A stretch of DNA of 64,000 nt from Thiomicrorhabdus xiamenensis (GTDB lineage Bacteria > Pseudomonadota > Gammaproteobacteria > Thiomicrospirales > Thiomicrospiraceae). A program made the position numbers and the translations under genes. The DNA is taken from assembly GCF_013282625.1 (NCBI RefSeq), contig NZ_CP054020.1, positions 2,232,001 through 2,296,000 on the forward strand, in the 5' to 3' direction. The stretch's first letter is position 1; each line of letters starts with the position of its first letter. Of the stretch, positions 27,128-36,278 are shown piece after piece. The notes below the pieces were generated by a model. It saw only the letters and a program-made list of their open reading frames with translations, ran no database searches and had not been told where the DNA came from.

Positions 27128-27178
27128 GAGACCGGCCTGTAAAAGACCGGTCGCAACTTAACTCGCTAATTAAGTTGC
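27128..27178. terminator. Tandem hairpins between convergent epimerase-like gene and arsJ
   Basis: GACCGG..CCGGTC (27129-27151) is followed by a perfect nine-base stem GCAACTTAA/TTAAGTTGC (27153-27178) that includes the arsJ stop. Neither is followed by a strong T-run, so efficiency is uncertain. Confidence 0.45.
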
Positions 27179-28390
27179 TGTGACACTCGCCGGCTGGCGG
27201 ATTTTTCCGGCCAGTAATCCGGCCAGCAGAACGAAAACCGCCGCCGTCATCAAACAGGCCTCCATTCCGGCTACCTGATACACATAGCCGGACAACAATG
27301 TACCGACCAAACGCCCGGCGGCATTCGCCATATAGTAGAAACCGACGTCCTTGGAAGCCCCGTCCGCATCTGCATAAGAGACGATAAGATAAGAGTGCAC
27401 CGCGGAGTTGAGCGCAAACACAATCCCGAAAATCACCAGTCCAATCAACAGAATCCATTGCGGTTCTTTATTCAGAAAAAGCGCCATCAGAAAGGGAATC
27501 GCTCCGAGCGTGAAAGCCAACAGCTTGGCTGTATTAGCGGTCGGATTGCGTGATCCGTTATCCCCACCCTTCTTAATCCCGGTTAAAGCCGGTGCACTGG
27601 CCTGCACCATACCGTACCCGATAATCCAGAAAGCCATATAGGCGCCAATTGCCGTATGCTCCCACTGCAACACCGTTGCCAGATACAGCGGCAAAGCGAC
27701 CACAAACCAGATATCGCGTGCGCCGAACAGAAAAAAACGCGCCGCGGAAAGCATATTGATCGGCTGGCTTTTGGAAAAAATTTCACGGAACTTGTTTTTC
27801 TGTTTCGCCTTACCGATTTCCGATTGCAGCATCAGCAGCGACAACAGCCAAATCACCGCCAGAACCGAAGCCATTAACAGCATCGCGTCGGCAAAACCGA
27901 CCAATTCCAGCAACAGAGCCCCCACAAAAAAACCGGCACCCTTCAGAGCATTTTTCGAGCCGGTCAGCAAAGCCACCCAACGGTACATCTGACCGTCTTT
28001 TTCCTGGGTCAGCGATTTGATCGAGCTTTTGGCACTCATCTTATTGAGGTCTTTGGCGATCCCGGACAATGCCTGCGCCAGCATCACATAGGCGACCGAC
28101 AGCCAACTCGGATCGACCGTCAACATCAGCAAAGCGACAACCTGCAACGCCAGTCCGAGATTCATCGTCACCTTCAAACCAAGGTGTGCGCCAAGCCAGC
28201 CGCCGAACAGATTGGTTACGATGCCGAAAAACTCATACAACAGGAACAGCATGGCAATTTCCAGCGGGCTGTAACCAAGCTGATGAAAAAACAGCAACAC
28301 CAACATGCGCAGCGCGCCGTCGGTTACGGTAAAAGCCCAATAATTGGCGGTCACGATCCCGTATTGTGCAACGGGCGAGTGCAATGACAT
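27170..28390 (-). CDS. arsJ: Organoarsenical efflux permease ArsJ (MFS)
   Basis: 406 residues, about 12 membrane segments of the major facilitator type. ArsJ-type features are the N-terminal NYWAFTVTDGALRMLVLLFFHQLGY, the AKDLNKMSAKSS loop and the FLFGARDIWFVVALPLYL segment. ArsJ exports 1-arseno-3-phosphoglycerate, which a dedicated GAPDH makes from arsenate and which breaks down outside the cell, giving net arsenate export. The GAPDH gene lies 75 bases upstream on the same strand. AAAGGAG precedes the ATG. Last gene of the arsenic cluster. Confidence 0.95.
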   Translation of the reverse strand: MSLHSPVAQYGIVTANYWAFTVTDGALRMLVLLFFHQLGYSPLEIAMLFLLYEFFGIVTNLFGGWLGAHLGLKVTMNLGLALQVVALLMLTVDPSWLSVAYVMLAQALSGIAKDLNKMSAKSSIKSLTQEKDGQMYRWVALLTGSKNALKGAGFFVGALLLELVGFADAMLLMASVLAVIWLLSLLMLQSEIGKAKQKNKFREIFSKSQPINMLSAARFFLFGARDIWFVVALPLYLATVLQWEHTAIGAYMAFWIIGYGMVQASAPALTGIKKGGDNGSRNPTANTAKLLAFTLGAIPFLMALFLNKEPQWILLIGLVIFGIVFALNSAVHSYLIVSYADADGASKDVGFYYMANAAGRLVGTLLSGYVYQVAGMEACLMTAAVFVLLAGLLAGKIRQPASVTAT

Positions 28391-28465: not shown

Positions 28466-29506
28466 TCACTCCAACCCTTGCGGCTTCGGCAACAGCGCCT
28501 GATTCAAACGACCGACCTTGGCCGCCAGTTCCATCATACGCACCACATAACCGGTTTCATTGTCGTACCAGGCCAACACCTTCAACTGCGTACCGTTAAC
28601 AACCAGAGTCGACAGCGCATCAATCACCGACGAGCAGGTTTCCCCCTCATAATCGACGGACACCAGCGGCCGGGTCTCGTAACCGAGAACGCCTTGCAAA
28701 TCATTCTGTGCGGCATCGGCAAACAGCAGATTGACCTCTTCGGCCGTTACCTTGCGTTTCATCTCCAGAGTGAGGTCGGTCAATGACGCATTCATAAAAG
28801 GGACTCGCACCGCCAGACCGTTCAAACGCCCGTTCAATTCAGGGAAAATAGTGCCGATCGCCTTGGCTGATCCCGTGCTGGTCGGAATCAGCGACTCAAA
28901 ACTGGAGCGGGCACGACGCAAATCCTTGTGACCGTGGTCAACCACCTTCTGAGTATTGGTACGGTCATGCATAGTCAGAATCGAGCCATGCTCAATACCG
29001 ATCTTCTCCTGCAATACCTTGATAACCGGAGCAATACAGTTGGTGGTACAGGAAGCGGCGGTAATGATTCGATCCTCGCCGGCGACAAAAACATCGTCAT
29101 TGACTCCCATGACAATATTCTTGATCGGCTCTTTCATCGGCGCGGCGACAATGACCTGCGGAATTCCCTGATCCAAATACGGCTGCAGACTTTCCTCTGT
29201 CCGAAACTGACCGGTTGCCTCAATCACTACATCCACCCCGAATGCGGCCCAATCGGTAGCATCAATCTCTTCGTGCTGAGAGTAACTGATCGCATGGCCG
29301 TTAATCACAATCTGGCCATGGTCTTCCTTGGCTTCATGTTGCCAGCGCCCGTGCGCCGAATCGAAATTCAGAAGATGTGCCGAACCGTAAGCGTCGGTCG
29401 CAATTTCATTGATATGCACAAATTCAATTTCCGGCCAATCGAAAGCCTGACGCAGCGCCAGCCGTCCCATGCGCCCAAACCCGTTAATCGCCACTTTAAT
29501 TGTCAT
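28466..29506 (-). CDS. ArsJ-associated glyceraldehyde-3-phosphate dehydrogenase
   Basis: 346 residues with a complete GAPDH fold: NAD motif INGFGRMGRLALR at the N-terminus, catalytic Cys153 in TAASCTTNCIAP, His in the later LTMHDRTNTQ segment, and NETGYVVRMMEL near the C-terminus. The variant spellings and the position directly before arsJ mark it as the arsenate-detoxifying paralog that forms 1-arseno-3-phosphoglycerate, rather than the housekeeping enzyme. The start has AAGGAACA upstream. Confidence 0.95.
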   Translation of the reverse strand: MTIKVAINGFGRMGRLALRQAFDWPEIEFVHINEIATDAYGSAHLLNFDSAHGRWQHEAKEDHGQIVINGHAISYSQHEEIDATDWAAFGVDVVIEATGQFRTEESLQPYLDQGIPQVIVAAPMKEPIKNIVMGVNDDVFVAGEDRIITAASCTTNCIAPVIKVLQEKIGIEHGSILTMHDRTNTQKVVDHGHKDLRRARSSFESLIPTSTGSAKAIGTIFPELNGRLNGLAVRVPFMNASLTDLTLEMKRKVTAEEVNLLFADAAQNDLQGVLGYETRPLVSVDYEGETCSSVIDALSTLVVNGTQLKVLAWYDNETGYVVRMMELAAKVGRLNQALLPKPQGLE

Positions 29507-29609: not shown

Positions 29610-30254
29610 TTAACTTTCCGACTTTAACCAGCCTGCCACCTGATCGTGCGTCGGAACGCCACCGGAGTGAACCACCTTGTCATTCACCACCACGCCCGGC
29701 GTACTCATTACCCCGTAGGAAGCGATCTCTGCAACATCTTCGACTTTGCTGATATTGACACAGACATCCAGCTCTCCGGCAACCTTTTCGATCAGCGCAA
29801 CGGTATTGTTGCAGTTACTGCAACCGGTTCCCAAGACCTTGATCTCCATAGCATCGTCACAACAGACGGATTTTTGAGAATCGCCGCAGCATGACGATTT
29901 ATCGCTTGCAGGACTGCAGCAGGAAGAATCCTCTTCAGAACAGCAGGCGCTTTTTTTGTTTTTGTCCGTAGCAGCGGAATCGCAGCAGCTGTCATCGGAA
30001 CAACAGGCTTTATCCCCGGCGTCGGCATCACAGACCACACCGCAGGCAACACACTCGCCGCGTGAATTTTTAAACATCGGGCAGAACCCGGTATAGGATG
30101 CCTGAATCGCGTTCAAAGCCATCAGGATCATCAACCACAGAAATGAGACCTGAGTCAGATCAATCTGCCCCATAAAATGTGAAACAGCTAATAAAATCAG
30201 CATCATCACAGCAAAGATGCGTAGTGGACGATTTCCCTTAATTGCAACACTCAT
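29610..30254 (-). CDS. Fusion of a DUF2892/YgaP-type membrane domain, a CC-repeat linker and a thioredoxin-like domain
   Basis: 214 residues in three parts. Residues 1-60: a two-helix DUF2892 membrane domain ending TGFCPMFK, as in YgaP. Residues 65-133: a hydrophilic stretch with six vicinal cysteine pairs (84-85, 90-91, 104-105, 112-113, 122-123, 131-132) plus a CxxCxxxC at 68-75. Residues 136-214: a small thioredoxin-like domain of the MTH895/TM0996 type with CxxC in GTGCSNCNN (145-148) and cis-Pro motif STPGVVV. Nineteen cysteines in all. It lies between the ArsP-type permease (15-base gap) and the GAPDH/arsJ pair. Likely a membrane-tethered thiol protein that binds or hands on As(III) or reduces a partner; the cysteine-rich insert may be lineage-specific. 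Confidence 0.85.
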   Translation of the reverse strand: MSVAIKGNRPLRIFAVMMLILLAVSHFMGQIDLTQVSFLWLMILMALNAIQASYTGFCPMFKNSRGECVACGVVCDADAGDKACCSDDSCCDSAATDKNKKSACCSEEDSSCCSPASDKSSCCGDSQKSVCCDDAMEIKVLGTGCSNCNNTVALIEKVAGELDVCVNISKVEDVAEIASYGVMSTPGVVVNDKVVHSGGVPTHDQVAGWLKSES

Positions 30255-30269
30255 TCAACTTTCTCCTCA

Positions 30270-31244
30270 TTACAATTTAGCGTAAAAATAATTAAAGCCG
30301 TACCCGACCAGAATAAAAGCCACCACCAAGACTGCGACAAACAGCAGCAGTGCCGGCCAGCGAATCACTTTTCTTAAAATAAGCAGTTCCGGCAAAGACA
30401 GCGCGGCAATACTCATCATCAGCGCCAGACTGGTACCAAGCGGCACGCCCTTGCCCAGCATGGCTTCGATGACCGGAATTACACCGGTGGCGTTGGAATA
30501 CAAGGGAACGCCGAGCAGCACCGCCGCCGGCACACTCCACCAGTTACTTGCATCCGCCAGCGTTTCGGTAACCCAGACTTGCGGGACATAACCATGAAAG
30601 GCCGCTCCGACACCGATACCGATAAACACCCAGTGCCAGATGCGTTTTACAATCACTTTTACCTCGCTCCAGGCAAAACCGTGTCTGGCACGCCAACCGT
30701 TGGCAAGCGCTTGCTGTTCCTGAGCCTGGCGCATCTTGATATCCCAGACATAAGCCTCAACCCAGCGCTCCGGCTTAAACCAGCCGATGACCACCGATCC
30801 GATATAGGCGACCACCAATCCCGCCAGTACGTACCAGAAAGCGACCTCCCACCCCAGCAGGGAAATCAACAGTACCACAGCCACTTCATTAATCATCGGG
30901 CTGGCAATCAGAAAAGCAAAGGTGATGCTGAGCGGGATTCTGGCTTCAACGAAACCGATAAACAGAGGAACCGACGAACAAGAGCAAAAAGGCGTCACCG
31001 ATCCCAGACCGATCGCCATGGAACGGCCTAACCATAATGGCTTGCCGACAACCACACTGCGCACACGTTCGGTAGAAACAAACGCCCGCAGCAACCCCAT
31101 CAGATAGATAATCAGCACCAGCAGGAAAAAGATTTTCAGCACATCCATGACAAAGAAATGCATGGCCTGCCCGAATGCGGTTTGAGAGTCTATGCTCAGA
31201 ATGCCATAAACAAACCAGCTTGCTGTGCTTTCAAACGGTGTCAT
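30270..31244 (-). CDS. Permease of the ArsP / COG0701 family
   Basis: 324 residues, about eight membrane segments. The family signature TPFCSCSSVPLFIGF with its paired cysteines is present, as is the second repeat VPLYSNATGVIPVIEAML. ArsP members export trivalent organoarsenicals such as methylarsenite. It starts two bases after the stop of the upstream MBL gene and 15 bases before the CC-repeat fusion, all in the ArsR-linked cluster. The same family includes proteins of unknown substrate, so the arsenic role rests on context. Confidence 0.88.
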   Translation of the reverse strand: MTPFESTASWFVYGILSIDSQTAFGQAMHFFVMDVLKIFFLLVLIIYLMGLLRAFVSTERVRSVVVGKPLWLGRSMAIGLGSVTPFCSCSSVPLFIGFVEARIPLSITFAFLIASPMINEVAVVLLISLLGWEVAFWYVLAGLVVAYIGSVVIGWFKPERWVEAYVWDIKMRQAQEQQALANGWRARHGFAWSEVKVIVKRIWHWVFIGIGVGAAFHGYVPQVWVTETLADASNWWSVPAAVLLGVPLYSNATGVIPVIEAMLGKGVPLGTSLALMMSIAALSLPELLILRKVIRWPALLLFVAVLVVAFILVGYGFNYFYAKL

Positions 31245-31246
31245 TT

Positions 31247-32182
31247 TTAGAGCCCCTGCTCAAACTGTAAGTAAGTACGGTTAAGAATCATTTTATGCCA
31301 AGAGTCGTAATGCTCCAGGTGTTTAAATTCCGGCCAATCCTTATTATCGGCAACTGCCTGATCTACGCCGAGCATTTCATCCGCCGCTGCAGACATAACG
31401 TCAACCAGTTTATCCAGATAAGCTCCGGTATCCTGACGCGCCTTATTCCAATCGCAAACCTGTCCGTGTCCGGGGACAATCTTTACCGCCGGCAAAGCTT
31501 CGGCCTGATGAAAGGCGTTGCGCCAACTCGCCACCTTGGAAAACGGATGCACTCCAAGCATTCGGTCTACGTAAATCAGATCGCCTGAAAACAGAATTTT
31601 CTGCTGCGGCAACCAGACAACGACATCACCGGGAAAATGCGCATCACCGAAAAATTTAAGCGCAAAATCCACGCCACCGATATTAAACTGAGCGTCGTTC
31701 CCTTCAAAAGGCTTTGCGGCATGCTCAGGCGAAGTTCCAGCAAAAACAGAAGAAACTTTGGACATCTTTTCAATCAGTTCTGCCGCCATCTTCTTCTGAG
31801 TCGCCACCGTCCGCGAGAGCGCATAGACGGGGACACCCTTTTGAGCAAAATAATGATTTCCTAACCAACGATGATCCTGACTGCCGGTATTGATCACTGC
31901 AATAATCGATTTATCGGTCACTTCTCCTGCCGCTTTTTCCAACGCTTTGGCAGAAACATCTCCCGCGCCCGAGTCGATCAACACGGCGCCATCCTCGGTT
32001 ATTACAAGGCCGATATTATTATTCAACCCCAAATTTTCTTCCGAACGATTCGTTAAAGGCCCGATGTAAGCATAAACCTGATCCGCAACCGGCTTAAAGT
32101 GAAACTCCATGGCCTGCCCGGGAACAGCAAACAGACTCAGACAGAAAGTGACTAAAACTGAAATTTTTTTCGACCAATCCAC
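31247..32182 (-). CDS. Secreted MBL-fold metallo-hydrolase with altered HxHxDH motif
   Basis: 311 residues from the GTG at 32180-32182 (GGAGG six bases upstream), opening into a signal peptide (SVLVTFCLSLFAVPGQA). Metallo-beta-lactamase fold: GLVITEDGAVLIDSG, FFGDAHFPGDVVVW, FSGDLIYVD and IVPGHGQ. The usual THxHxDH loop reads NTGSQDHRWLGN, so the standard first zinc-site histidines are absent while Q-x-H remains. It is the first gene after the divergent arsR, two bases before the ArsP-type permease, so an arsenic-related periplasmic role is inferred. A relative at 41040-42161 has the same change. Confidence 0.85.
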   Translation of the reverse strand: MDWSKKISVLVTFCLSLFAVPGQAMEFHFKPVADQVYAYIGPLTNRSEENLGLNNNIGLVITEDGAVLIDSGAGDVSAKALEKAAGEVTDKSIIAVINTGSQDHRWLGNHYFAQKGVPVYALSRTVATQKKMAAELIEKMSKVSSVFAGTSPEHAAKPFEGNDAQFNIGGVDFALKFFGDAHFPGDVVVWLPQQKILFSGDLIYVDRMLGVHPFSKVASWRNAFHQAEALPAVKIVPGHGQVCDWNKARQDTGAYLDKLVDVMSAAADEMLGVDQAVADNKDWPEFKHLEHYDSWHKMILNRTYLQFEQGL

Positions 32183-32352
32183 GAGATACCTCCAAGATTC
32201 ACATATACGCATAAGCAAATATATTATTCTCAAACCGGAAACTTTCAAAGCACTTTTAAAAGTTTTAGAAAAATCCGTGCATTTGCTTCAAAATAGACAG
32301 ACATCGGAAAACATCCGTCGAGATTGATACACAATAGAACCCGTCAAAATTT
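32183..32352. promoter_or_regulatory. Divergent ArsR-controlled promoter region
   Basis: 170 bases between the divergent MBL gene and arsR. An AT-rich imperfect dyad (ATATACGCATAAGCAAATATAT, halves split around position 32213) is a candidate ArsR operator. The symmetry is poor, so the exact site is unproven. Confidence 0.4.
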
Positions 32353-32694
32353 ATGACATTAGAAACCGTCACTCAAACCTTTAAAGCGCTCTCGGAACCA
32401 GTCCGCCTGCGCATCGTCCACTTGCTACTACAGCGCGAATCGCTCTGTGTCTGCGATCTGGTCGAAACACTGGAACTGAATCAAAGTACCGTGTCCCGTC
32501 ATCTAGCCTATCTGAAGAACTCCGGCTTGGTCACGTCCTGGCGCGACGGAACCTGGATGCACTATGCGCTGATTCCCGAAACCTTGCAAATACTTAACCT
32601 TGAAGTACTCAAGCGACATTTGTCCGAACAGTTAAGCTTGGATTTACAAAAACTACAGGCTTACGAGCAAAAACCAAGAAGCTGTAATCTGTAA
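32353..32694 (+). CDS. arsR: ArsR-family transcriptional repressor
   Basis: 113 residues with a winged helix-turn-helix: FKALSEPVRLRIVHLL, recognition helix LNQSTVSRHLAYLKNSGLV, wing SWRDGTWMHYAL. The metal site CVCDL (ESLCVCDLVETL, about residues 32-34) is the ELCVCDL motif of As(III)/Sb(III)-sensing ArsR. It would repress the divergent MBL-permease-fusion-GAPDH-arsJ unit and be released by arsenite. A further cysteine lies at the C-terminus (RSCNL). Confidence 0.94.
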   Translation: MTLETVTQTFKALSEPVRLRIVHLLLQRESLCVCDLVETLELNQSTVSRHLAYLKNSGLVTSWRDGTWMHYALIPETLQILNLEVLKRHLSEQLSLDLQKLQAYEQKPRSCNL

Positions 32695-32812: not shown

Positions 32813-34156
32813 ATGAAAAATAGAGTTTTTGATGTGGTCATTGTCGGCGGCGGTATCTCGGGTTGTGCCTTGACCTATATGCTGTCACGTTACACCGATG
32901 TAAAGAAAGTGGCTATGCTTGAAAAGTACGGCAGCCTGGCACCGTTGAATTCCAGCGCAAGATCCAATAGCCAGACCCTGCACTGCGGCGACATCGAAAC
33001 CAACTACACACTGGAAAAAGCCAAAGTCGTCAAACAACAGGCAAGTATGATCGAATACTTTGCCCAGCAGGTTGAAAAGAACGACTTCCTGTATAAATTC
33101 CCGAAAATGATTCTTGCCGTCGGCGATGACGAATGTGAACGTCTGGAAAAACGCCATCACGAGTTTGCCGAAGCCTTCCCGTATATGGAACTGTGGGACG
33201 CCGACAAGATCGCCGAAGTTGAACCTGCGGTGACGATGAAAGACGGCGAACGCCGCCCGGAGCGCATTCTGGCTTCCGGCTGTACCGACGAATATTCTGC
33301 AGTCAATTACGGCAACATGTCCAAGGCACTGATTAATCAGGCACGTAAAACCAATACCGAAATTCAGGTTTCCCTGAGCACGGAAGTACAGAAAATCAGC
33401 AAAGTTGAAGACGGCTACGAGTTAAATACCTCGCAAGGCACGTTCTTCGCGGATTTCGTTGTGGTCTCCGCCGGCGGTCACAGCCTGCTACTGGCCAACC
33501 AATTAGGACACGGCATGGACATGTCGATTCTGCCAATGGCCGGCAGCTTCTATTACGTACCGAAAATCCTGAACGGTAAAGTCTATACCATGCAGAACGA
33601 CAAGCTGCCTTTTGCCGCGCTGCACGGCGACCCGGACCTAGTTGAACTGAGCAAAACCCGTCTTGGGCCGACGGCTCTGGTTCTACCGAAACTGGAACGC
33701 TACACCGGCGGAACTTATCTGGATTTCTGGCGCAGCCTGAAACTCGATCGAAAGGTCCTCAAAGTCTTCTGGGATCTGATGAAAGACAGCACCATCCGCA
33801 ACTACATTTTGCGTAACTTTGCCTTCGAGATTCCATGGTTGCGTAAACGCCTGTTTGCAAAAGACGCACAGAAAATCATTCCGGATCTAAAACCGGAAGA
33901 TCTCGAATATGCCTCCGGCATCGGTGGCCTGCGACCTCAGGTTATCGACAAAACTACTATGCAGCTGAAGCTGGGAGAAGCGAGCATCGTTCCGGAAAAC
34001 GAGCGCCTGATTTTCAATATGACGCCTTCCCCGGGTGCCACCACCTGTCTTGGTAATGCCTACCGCGACGCGCAAATCATCTGCGAACGTTTGAATATTC
34101 AGATGCACAAGCAGCAGGCGATCGACGAACTCCTCGGCGGAAAAGACCTGCCTTAA
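32813..34156 (+). CDS. FAD-dependent oxidoreductase, malate:quinone oxidoreductase-like
   Basis: 447 residues. The N-terminal FAD-binding motif is VVIVGGGISGCALTYMLSRY, and MQO-type features follow: NSSARSNSQTLHCGDIETNY, a middle substrate region (PMAGSFYYVP, LGPTALVLPKLERY) and a C-terminal GIGGLRPQVID. MQO oxidises malate to oxaloacetate at the membrane and passes electrons to quinone; organisms of this group are known to use it in place of NAD malate dehydrogenase. The homology is to the MQO superfamily, so the substrate is probable rather than certain. A COG0523 gene starts five bases after its stop. Confidence 0.82.
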   Translation: MKNRVFDVVIVGGGISGCALTYMLSRYTDVKKVAMLEKYGSLAPLNSSARSNSQTLHCGDIETNYTLEKAKVVKQQASMIEYFAQQVEKNDFLYKFPKMILAVGDDECERLEKRHHEFAEAFPYMELWDADKIAEVEPAVTMKDGERRPERILASGCTDEYSAVNYGNMSKALINQARKTNTEIQVSLSTEVQKISKVEDGYELNTSQGTFFADFVVVSAGGHSLLLANQLGHGMDMSILPMAGSFYYVPKILNGKVYTMQNDKLPFAALHGDPDLVELSKTRLGPTALVLPKLERYTGGTYLDFWRSLKLDRKVLKVFWDLMKDSTIRNYILRNFAFEIPWLRKRLFAKDAQKIIPDLKPEDLEYASGIGGLRPQVIDKTTMQLKLGEASIVPENERLIFNMTPSPGATTCLGNAYRDAQIICERLNIQMHKQQAIDELLGGKDLP

Positions 34157-34161
34157 TCGCG

Positions 34162-35196
34162 ATGGCCGGCATTCCGACGTATTTAATCAGCGGTCTCCTC
34201 GGCAGCGGTAAAACCACCTGTCTAAGGCAGCTGATTAAACAGAAACCGGAAAACGAAAACTGGGCGGTACTGATCAACGAATTCGGCGAAGTCGATATTG
34301 ACGGTGCCACCCTGTCGCAAAACAACGCCGTCACGATTAAAGCCGTTTCCGGCGGCTGCATCTGCTGCTCCGCGCAGTTCAATCTGGCTCAAGCGCTCGG
34401 GGAATTGAGTCGTCAGCCAATCGACAAACTGTTTATCGAACCGACCGGACTCGGCCACCCGGCCAAGGTGCTCGATACTCTGAAACAGTTCCCGCAGTTC
34501 ACCCTCCACAAAACCCTGTGTGTGATCACGCCACAGCAACTGACCGAAGTACGCTGGCAAAAATCGCAGGTCATGCGCGATCTGGTGACACTGGCCGATC
34601 TGATCGTGCTCAACAAAACCGACCTGAGCTCGCAACAAGAAGTGACGAAGAGTCAGGCGATCCTTAAACGGCTATATACTCAAAAAACAATACTGCCGAC
34701 ACAGTTTGCCCAAATCACCATCGAGCAACTCAAGCCACCCGAGCAAGCTCGCCCCCTTTTTCAGTTTCAGGCCGTTGCAACGGATTTCAGCCTTAAACAG
34801 AACGCGGACGCAGTGCATGCAAGCGAAAACCGCGACTGGAACAGCACCCTTCCCGGTGTCGAACAGGCTTTTCTGCAAATCGATCCGCAAAACGGCCGAC
34901 TGCTCGCTATTGGCTGGCAATTCAGTGCCGAAGTGCAGTTTAACCGCATCGCATTGAAGGCCTGGATAGACAATTTCGCTCCTCTTATGGCTCGCGCTAA
35001 AGGCTTGGTGCGCACAGGAAAAGAGTGGCAGCTATTGAATTATATTGATAACCATTTACAATTAGAAGATATTGCCTGGCGACAAGATAGCCGACTGGAA
35101 TGTCTATTTACAGAAGCACCAAACAGCATCCCACCGCATAAAGACACTATTATTTCTATGGAATCTCAATTGCTTAGCGCTATCCAGCTTCGCTAA
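34162..35196 (+). CDS. COG0523/CobW-family metal chaperone GTPase
   Basis: 344 residues. G-domain motifs: Walker A SGLLGSGKTT, the INEFGEVDID switch, the metal-binding GGCICCSAQ (CxCC), and NKTD for guanine specificity; a CobW C-terminal domain follows (about 240-320). Such GTPases deliver metal, often zinc, to client enzymes under limitation. The next gene is folE2, the zinc-independent GTP cyclohydrolase, a pairing typical of zinc-limitation responses. I saw no Zur box upstream. Translation is probably coupled to the mqo-like gene. Confidence 0.9.
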   Translation: MAGIPTYLISGLLGSGKTTCLRQLIKQKPENENWAVLINEFGEVDIDGATLSQNNAVTIKAVSGGCICCSAQFNLAQALGELSRQPIDKLFIEPTGLGHPAKVLDTLKQFPQFTLHKTLCVITPQQLTEVRWQKSQVMRDLVTLADLIVLNKTDLSSQQEVTKSQAILKRLYTQKTILPTQFAQITIEQLKPPEQARPLFQFQAVATDFSLKQNADAVHASENRDWNSTLPGVEQAFLQIDPQNGRLLAIGWQFSAEVQFNRIALKAWIDNFAPLMARAKGLVRTGKEWQLLNYIDNHLQLEDIAWRQDSRLECLFTEAPNSIPPHKDTIISMESQLLSAIQLR

Positions 35197-35321
35197 ATTC
35201 CAACAATTAAGCCGCCGTTTTTTTAAATATTTGTTAAAATCGCAGCTCATTTTTTAATCACGAGACGTGCCCCACTTGCTTTTGCCAATAGGACCCGTCC
35301 ACAACAGCCGAAGGAAATTGC

Positions 35322-36278
35322 ATGACTAAGCACATGCCCGATATCGCGTGTCAGCCGCACCAAACACCACAAGGAACCCTTAATTGGGTCGGAATGAGCG
35401 GCATTGAACTGCCTGTTTTGGTTCAACAAGGAACGGATGCCTCGCAAAGCGTTCGTATGTCCTCTTTAGCCCAAGCTTACGTCAATCTAGGAAACCCGCT
35501 CAGCAAGGGTATCCATATGTCACGACTGTATCTGATCCTCGATCAGATGGCAACCGAAGAGCCGCTTTCACCGAACCGCGTTAAAGCGATTTTGGATAAA
35601 TTCATTGAATCGCATGAAGGACTGAGTTCGCATGCGTTTGTTGAGTTCAAGTTTGATTACTACGAGCGCCGTAACTCGCTGAAAAGCGACAACAGCGGTT
35701 GGAAACACTATCCGTGCACTGTCCGCGGTGAAATGCGTGACGGCAATTTTGATTGTGAGATATCCATCGAAGTACCTTACTCTTCAACCTGTCCTTGCTC
35801 GGCTGCACTTTCTCGCCAGCTGATTCAGGAAGCGTTTGAAAGAGATTTCGACGGTAAAGATCTGAGTTATGCCGAAGTCATGGCTTGGCTGGGCACACCG
35901 GAAGGTATCTGTGCGACGCCGCATAGCCAGCGCTCTTATGCTCAGGTCAAGGTCAAAGTCGAGGAAAGCGATTCATTGGGCATTTCCAATCTGATTAACG
36001 ACATTGAAGCCGCTCTGCAAACGCCGGTACAGGCCGCGGTTAAACGTGAAGACGAACAGGAATTCGCACGCCTGAATGCCTCCAACCTGATGTTCTGCGA
36101 AGACGCCAGTCGTCGTTTGCAGGCCGCTCTTAGCGCTCAGGAAGAACATTACCTGGATTTCTGGGTACGCGTTAACCACCTGGAAAGCCTGCACCCGCAC
36201 GATGCGGTAGCGATTGTCACCAAAGGGATCGACGGCGGTTACACCGACGAACCGAATTTGATGGATCCTATGAAGTAA
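35322..36278 (+). CDS. folE2: GTP cyclohydrolase FolE2 (type IB)
   Basis: 318 residues, full length. It makes dihydroneopterin triphosphate from GTP for folate or queuosine synthesis without the zinc requirement of FolE. Family blocks: GMSGIELPV, QAYVNLGNPLSKGIHMSRLY, VPYSSTCPCSAALSRQLI (with the metal-binding cysteine), and TPHSQRSYAQVKV. A terminator follows. Its neighbour COG0523 gene suggests use when zinc is scarce. Confidence 0.97.
   Translation: MTKHMPDIACQPHQTPQGTLNWVGMSGIELPVLVQQGTDASQSVRMSSLAQAYVNLGNPLSKGIHMSRLYLILDQMATEEPLSPNRVKAILDKFIESHEGLSSHAFVEFKFDYYERRNSLKSDNSGWKHYPCTVRGEMRDGNFDCEISIEVPYSSTCPCSAALSRQLIQEAFERDFDGKDLSYAEVMAWLGTPEGICATPHSQRSYAQVKVKVEESDSLGISNLINDIEAALQTPVQAAVKREDEQEFARLNASNLMFCEDASRRLQAALSAQEEHYLDFWVRVNHLESLHPHDAVAIVTKGIDGGYTDEPNLMDPMK

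Follow-up and report, generated by a model that had tools for sequence, protein, structure and literature searches.

The window, the whole stretch of 64,000 nucleotides of Thiomicrorhabdus xiamenensis DNA that was analysed, contains an arsenic gene cluster in which genes for a metallo-beta-lactamase-fold (MBL) protein, an ArsP_1 permease, a fusion protein, an ArsJ-type GAPDH and ArsJ follow one another on the same strand (Table 1). The permease gene lies 15 bases upstream of the fusion gene, with GAPDH and ArsJ downstream, and Pfam and NCBIfam profiles confirm these neighbours, which had been named in an original prediction made from the sequence alone. The permease is a member of PF03773 and reads TPFCSC at its motif, the feature that defines ArsP cluster 2, in which a tPF precedes the C(S/T)C motif (PMC4435449). 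The MBL-fold protein is nearest to SoxH-related models, below their cut-offs. An Mqo-like FAD oxidoreductase and a CobW-type GTPase are encoded next to the arsenic cluster, at 32813-36278 in the window and also in many genomes of the order, together with a gene that we take to be folE2-like. Scans for promoters and terminators found no excess over shuffled sequences.

Table 1. Features of the arsenic gene cluster, in positions of the window
Feature	Position	Strand	Evidence
Fusion protein (YgaP-like membrane domain, CC linker, ArsE-type thioredoxin)	29610..30254	-	Pfam, NCBIfam, AlphaFold
YgaP-like membrane domain, aa 8-61, two helices, both ends predicted cytoplasmic	30072..30233	-	PF11127, AlphaFold, charge pattern
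Low-complexity CC linker, aa 77-134, six CC pairs, predicted disordered	29853..30026	-	Shuffle test, AlphaFold
MTH895/ArsE-type thioredoxin domain, aa 136-211, GC145-S-N-C148	29622..29849	-	PF13192, TIGR00412, Foldseek
ArsP_1-family permease with TPF-CSC motif	30270..31244	-	PF03773 207 bits; motif read in sequence
Metallo-beta-lactamase-fold protein	31247..32248	-	PF00753
ArsR/SmtB-family regulator, divergent	32353..32694	+	NF033788 95.4 bits
ArsJ-associated GAPDH	28466..29506	-	NF033735 521 bits, cut-off 450
ArsJ organoarsenical efflux transporter family	27170..28390	-	NF033734 593 bits, cut-off 400

Architecture of the fusion protein

The fusion gene starts with ATG and encodes 214 amino acids. 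A DUF2892-like membrane part and a CxxC thioredoxin-like end had been predicted, and both are recovered by profile searches: the membrane domain passes YgaP-like_TM (PF11127) marginally, with 26.2 bits against a gathering cut-off of 25.3, the C-terminal part matches Thioredoxin_3 (PF13192) with 89.4 bits (cut-off 24.8), and 86.9 bits against a curated cut-off of 62 make it a member of TIGR00412, the MTH895/ArsE family. The GCxxC of its redox motif is conserved in all 42 fusions of the order, whose distribution is described below. In the AlphaFold model (mean pLDDT of the whole protein 62.1) two helices span residues 9-27 and 37-55, residues 56-131 fall below 50 and appear unordered, and the thioredoxin part (136-213) is confident, with block means mostly of 83-91. 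MTH895 is the best phmmer match of the fusion (E 2.2e-5); in Foldseek its structure, 1ilo, ranks second by E-value among the PDB entries and has the highest target TM-score (0.80) among the 50 matches listed. E. coli YgaP is a rhodanese with a two-helix membrane domain; the membrane domain is common to both proteins, and in the fusion a thioredoxin takes the place of the rhodanese, for which Pfam gave no match in the window fusion up to E 1.

The charges flanking the two helices were counted in those 29 of the 38 normal-order fusions that begin with a KGN motif. There are 74 positive and no negative charges before helix 1, five positive and 34 negative in the loop between the helices, and 58 positive and 36 negative after helix 2. 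Under the positive-inside rule this pattern predicts a cytoplasmic position for both the linker and the thioredoxin. Compared with the nearest relative (L053), the window gene differs by 12 synonymous-only and two amino-acid differences in the membrane part, 14 and seven in the linker, and 23 and five in the thioredoxin, so that the gene looks constrained, the linker less so. No plasmid record matches the fusion over 80% of the query; 153 match it in part, and among the 20 listed all do so over the thioredoxin. An assignment to an anti-phage defence family was rejected, as PADLOC gave no match.

The six vicinal cysteine pairs of the linker lie exactly where they had been predicted, at residues 84-85, 90-91, 104-105, 112-113, 122-123 and 131-132. 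Shuffles of the same residues would lead one to expect 1.94 pairs in this linker (p 0.0005). Across the 42 fusion linkers 141 CC were observed against 35.4 expected in composition-preserving shuffles, a fourfold excess that is individually significant (p<0.05) in 36; the other six are the four linkers of reversed domain order and those of L083 and L088, which have a single CC each after trimming. Reversed-order linkers have one or two CC, with one more CC at the C-terminus of the protein, and every one of the 42 proteins has at least two CC (range 2-9). Of 304 linker cysteines 282 are paired, CxC and CxxC are absent from all 42 linkers, histidine accounts for three of 2160 residues, and the remainder is chiefly S, A, K, E, D, T and G. 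Such linkers agree with selection on how many thiols there are, and on their pairing, in a putatively disordered chain. Per-site conservation gives that view no support, since in cysteine-blind alignments of 20 linker pairs the pooled value is 0.46 for Cys and 0.48 for other residues; among the seven closest linker pairs, every Cys is conserved in five. A DNA-repeat origin of the CC run was rejected: there is no tandem repeat, and all four codon combinations occur among the CC pairs.

Distribution of the fusion and of its separate parts

A first contig scan returned 15 loci, all from Thiomicrorhabdus, Hydrogenovibrio, Thiomicrospira or Thiotrichales, eight of which (L002-L009) encode the full fusion, always beside permease, GAPDH and ArsJ, and seven a related membrane protein alone. 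The profile search of the order covered 62 genomes from one family and seven genera, and 60 regions were fetched and read. These regions yielded 41 fusion ORFs from 40 genomes, and adding the window raises the totals to 42 fusions and to 41 of the 62 genomes. The domains are ordered membrane-CC-thioredoxin in 38 and thioredoxin-CC-membrane in four (L092-L095), all of one genus, and in two further genomes (L090, L091) the thioredoxin lacks the membrane part. The prediction was to be refuted by a CC region unique to a single strain and variable in copy number; the 41 genomes contradict this, although the number of CC pairs does vary.

Among the 41 fetched fusion loci, 40 encode an ArsP-type permease on the fusion's strand and no more than 1.2 kb away, so that the suspected linkage of this architecture to arsP is a general one. 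At L072 a CDF-like ORF stands between fusion and permease, and at L083 the permease reads in two short frames. The sole locus without it (L079) is near the end of a short contig, with ArsR on one side of the fusion and the end part of a GAPDH gene on the other. Up to 6 kb from the 41 fetched fusions we found GAPDH 29 times, ArsR 28, ArsJ 27, MBL 19, ArsC 12 and ArsB three times, and neither ACR3 nor the CMD-like protein described below at any. GAPDH, ArsJ, ArsR, ArsC or ArsB are within this distance in 34 of the 41 loci, so that homologues with the full architecture do not lie mainly in non-arsenic contexts, the other outcome that would have refuted the prediction; at seven loci the permease is the lone arsenic-type neighbour. 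On its own the YgaP-like membrane domain mostly does not accompany arsenic genes: of the 19 membrane-only ORFs that the fetched loci contain, four have a permease, GAPDH, ArsJ or ArsR gene no further than 3 kb away, and two of these are copies inside fusion operons (L059, L060). Many of the membrane-only relatives L096-L112, mostly off arsenic genes too, share a GFCPMFKN..GECVACG pattern and have 0-3 CC; they are possible donors of the membrane part of the fusion.

Outside the family the parts occur separately. A class sample of 369 genomes gave 34 loci outside the family that were read (28 returned, six fetched) and a phylum sample of 398 genomes gave 29, the stronger matches in either case; none of these 34 and 29 loci has a membrane-thioredoxin fusion. 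The permease is present in 33 of the 34 class loci as read, the locus L129 beginning 53 bases from a contig end. At L117, L120, L126, L137, L162 and L182 a separate YgaP-like ORF lies directly beside the thioredoxin, and the fusion therefore joins what are neighbours elsewhere. Most members of the MTH895/ArsE family that were read are stand-alone proteins of about 76-106 aa, whereas the fusion's C-terminal domain, as a member, is joined to a membrane domain via the CC linker. The family (TIGR00412, 'redox-active disulfide protein 2') was known in ars operons before, if, as we infer, the two names denote the same proteins (PMC2963123). The cluster of ICEpMERPH likewise unites GAPDH, ArsJ, a thioredoxin-like protein and ArsP, but there the thioredoxin is a gene of its own and Acr3 is present (PMC6947025). 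In the parts of the literature covered by our search there was no paper that joins DUF2892 with arsenic and none whose title or first lines of abstract concern this architecture.

Vicinal cysteines recur on several of these separate proteins. Stand-alone thioredoxins with a two-CC tail were found in six of the 34 class loci (L125, L126, L130, L132, L139, L156) and likewise in Sulfuricella (L021), and in none of the 29 phylum-search loci; in 16 of the 34 class loci the thioredoxin has no carrier of two CC beside it. A small CMD-like protein sits between the ArsP-type permease and the ArsE thioredoxin (L021:6176-6487; L113-L116, L120, L121, L126, L130, L132, L134, L135, L137, L140, L159). One member matches PF02627 weakly, below the cut-off, and three others fall in no Pfam or NCBIfam family, although one of them has two weak DUF matches below the cut-off. 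It has at least two CC in 13 of the 14 class loci that possess it, mostly as a CC-tail end such as SGQSCC, and one, one and two CC in three phylum-search loci. Since it accompanies none of the 41 fetched fusions, its CC role may have passed to the linker of the fusion. Other CC tails were seen on a glyoxalase-fold protein (L141) and on GDCCVxC proteins (L021, L076). The glyoxalase-fold protein (L141:3613-4053), encoded just before the ArsP permease, also has a TCCYA stretch, presumably ArsI-like. Among 297 unassigned ORFs of L053-L095 and L141-L161 three have two CC in their last 45 residues, and each of the three belongs to the cassette: in L057 and L091 it stands between the genes for permease and thioredoxin, and in L141 it directly precedes the permease gene. 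Among the assigned non-cassette ORFs of the same loci there are none; the overlap filter of this count kept 38 of the 41 fusions.

Arsenic efflux genes and the ancestry of the fusion

In 60 genomes of the order ArsB was found in seven and ACR3 over its cut-off in three. A further 24 have only sub-cut-off ACR3 matches (in the window genome 40.6 bits against a cut-off of 282.8), which we take for other bile-acid-symporter relatives. The set includes 40 of the 41 fusion genomes (G042 was left out): ArsB is present in five of the 40 and ACR3 over the cut-off in none, so that 35, that of the window included, have neither, and the three genomes with a true ACR3 have no fusion. Because ArsB and ACR3 were not found in most fusion genomes, the permease beside the fusion would be the best candidate for the exit of inorganic As(III). 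An ArsM query that matches strongly in two control genomes found nothing of the tested type at 1e-20 in the 60 genomes; in seven fusion genomes its matches are weak and reach at best 1e-9 to 1e-11, a level to be expected of generic methyltransferases. As a candidate ArsC of the window genome, its sole LMW-phosphatase-family match was rejected, as it reads as an ordinary LMW phosphatase.

Outside the family, an ACR3 anywhere in the genome accompanies four of 18 loci with a CC carrier (at least two CC) against 13 of 16 without (Fisher p 0.0016), and ACR3 or ArsB six of 18 against 13 of 16 (p 0.007), in a post hoc comparison of loci of about 2 to 10 kb that ignores kinship. With the one-CC membrane ORF of L117 counted as a carrier, the ACR3 figures become five of 19 and 12 of 15 (p 0.0049).

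The thioredoxin tree alone is poorly resolved, with the long branches L189 and L190 falling among the fusions, and for this reason we relied on a midpoint-rooted permease tree of 98 rows, from which the long branches L019, L164 and L180 of an earlier 101-row tree had been dropped; the permeases of L079 (none) and L083 (two short frames) are in neither. The four permeases beside reversed fusions fall in a deep clade of 27, together with L117 and L120 and with the CC-tailed-thioredoxin loci L125, L130, L132, L139 and L021. The 36 permeases beside normal-order fusions belong to the other clade, where one clade contains 35 of them, all but that of L072. A single clade of all 40 fusion permeases, a group named after the loci had been seen, is rejected (p-AU 1.35e-34 with 98 rows, 1.08e-8 with 101). 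Because the permeases beside reversed fusions are of another lineage, two origins of the fusion are probable, in opposite order and with CC pairs placed between anchor and thioredoxin each time. Independent fusion is the simplest reading of the tree, exchange of the permease the alternative.

A candidate arsenic chaperone and its alternatives

Our preferred explanation, held with modest confidence, is that the fusion is a membrane-tethered, ArsD-like chaperone of trivalent arsenic for the adjoining cluster-2 ArsP permease. The two-helix anchor would fix the protein to the inner membrane, on whose cytoplasmic side linker and thioredoxin are predicted to lie, and the flexible chain of vicinal dithiols, by the established chemistry of As(III) with dithiols, would capture As(III) on its formation or entry. 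The ArsE-type thioredoxin could then take the arsenic on its CxxC and pass it to the permease, where the conserved C-S-C motif in the membrane could plausibly accept it; alternatively it may keep the CC thiols reduced. GAPDH and ArsJ would dispose of arsenate in parallel, as is established elsewhere for that pair. Binding of As(III), the hand-over, re-reduction by the fused thioredoxin and the substrate itself are thus all putative. The grounds for the chaperone are the linkage to the permease, the pairing of the cysteines, the invariant GCxxC and the predicted cytoplasmic side, to which are added the usual lack of ArsB and ACR3, the lack of ArsM of the tested type, the post hoc finding that CC carriers outside the family lie less often in genomes with ACR3, the separate-gene relatives, the two permease clades, a likeness to ArsD and the thioredoxin-ArsA fusion described below. 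Points against it are the null result of pooled Cys conservation, ArsB in five of the 40 fusion genomes, the seven permease-only loci, L079 and the split permease of L083, the 16 of 34 loci without a CC carrier, the 0 of 29 with a CC-tailed thioredoxin and a missing CCxxxxC site. The original prediction of a membrane-tethered arsenic buffer or relay is partly supported, because the architecture is common, the CC pairs are kept, the permease is linked and the charge pattern indicates the cytoplasm. Beyond it go the separate genes elsewhere, the reversible domain order and the cluster-2 motif of the permease.

ArsD is a soluble protein that serves ArsA. It shares with the fusion the thioredoxin fold, vicinal CC pairs and a place in an arsenic operon, the fusion having a CxxC and a membrane anchor instead; ArsD hands As(III) to a pump, and for the fusion such a hand-over is proposed by analogy. 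ArsD is a thioredoxin-fold As(III) metallochaperone with MTH895 (1ilo) as its top SCOP match (PMC3091736), and its metallochaperone cysteines are Cys12-13-18 (PMC4562236). The vicinal pairs of E. coli R773 ArsD are at the C-terminus (PMC4562236), in a tail. The two ArsD proteins compared by us end in CCSGSRCC and CCGGKTSCC. An hhalign comparison of 13 ArsE thioredoxins with these two gave a probability of 95.9 (E 5e-9) with the CC tails aligned, a score that rests on two ArsD rows only and owes part to the tails, and the fusion alignment reached 83.4 over 38 columns. The fusion is nevertheless not an ArsD, because Pfam ArsD has no match in the window fusion up to E 10, and the N-terminal CCxxxxC site present in both ArsD rows is replaced by GCSNC. 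At L190:1501-3231 (+), downstream of ACR3 and ArsC homologues, an ArsE thioredoxin is fused in frame to ArsA (Thioredoxin_3 72 bits, ArsA_ATPase 266 bits), which suggests that ArsE may stand in for ArsD.

Several other explanations have to be weighed. An unlikely one is the handling of organoarsenicals, in which permease and thioredoxin would act in the manner of ArsEFG on trivalent aromatic or methylated arsenicals bound by the CC linker. The NCBIfam name of the thioredoxin family, MTH895/ArsE, points this way, and the ArsEFG study, to judge by its title, reportedly concerns roxarsone and nitarsone. ArsE and ArsF give resistance to organic arsenicals (PMC9144182), and C. jejuni ArsP is cited as moving such compounds out of the cell (PMC4435449). 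However, ArsM of the tested type was not found at 1e-20 in the 60 genomes, which leaves MAs(III) without an apparent internal source, and the ArsC homologue near 12 of the 41 fusions would make inorganic As(III). The cluster-2 motif means that the window permease is not demonstrably a methylarsenite pump; we know of no experimentally tested cluster-2 member.

We regard it as improbable that the protein is mainly a thiol or persulfide relay, which would carry sulfane sulfur or electrons, for thio-arsenicals or to feed ArsC, with arsenic binding secondary. The host bacteria are sulfur oxidisers, the YgaP-like membrane domain accompanies a rhodanese in E. coli YgaP, and genes for rhodanese, OsmC, MBL or CcdA recur near ArsE thioredoxins. 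Thioredoxin-like proteins of ars operons, those of MTH895/ArsE type included, have been proposed to feed ArsC (PMC2963123). Such a relay would need one or two thiols, against up to nine CC pairs; moreover, ArsC is near so few of the fusions, and rhodanese is no part of them. A membrane-bound, metallothionein-like buffer of soft metals (Zn, Cd, Cu, Hg) would account for a cysteine-rich, low-complexity and predictedly disordered linker, but we consider it very improbable, as the linkers lack the CxC clusters of metallothioneins, and CxxC as well, are almost free of histidine, and are linked to ArsP, ArsJ, GAPDH and ArsC. That the linker is a neutral spacer left by gene fusion, its CC pairs without function, agrees with their variable number and position and with the pooled conservation, and yet is hardly credible given at least two CC in every fusion, the fourfold excess of pairing and the CC tails on unrelated cassette proteins, which are missing from the other flanking ORFs examined.

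If the chaperone reading is carried further, the cluster-2 ArsP permease together with a portable, disordered vicinal-cysteine 'arsenic sponge' might form an unrecognised, separate system of As(III) disposal that replaces ArsB and ACR3, a possibility that we put forward tentatively. The sponge would move among ArsE thioredoxins and YgaP-like membrane, CMD-like, glyoxalase-fold and GDCCVxC proteins, and the order would have built it twice, in opposite order, into membrane-tethered fusions. ArsP-type permeases and ArsE thioredoxins adjoin in many bacterial arsenic clusters, with substrate and partnership unsettled. A natural fusion beside the permease, mostly in genomes in which no ArsB or ACR3 was found, makes the partnership of permease and thioredoxin directly testable. 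If true, the chaperone would be a second design beside ArsD, built on a disordered dithiol chain, and would provide a compact natural arsenic-binding module.
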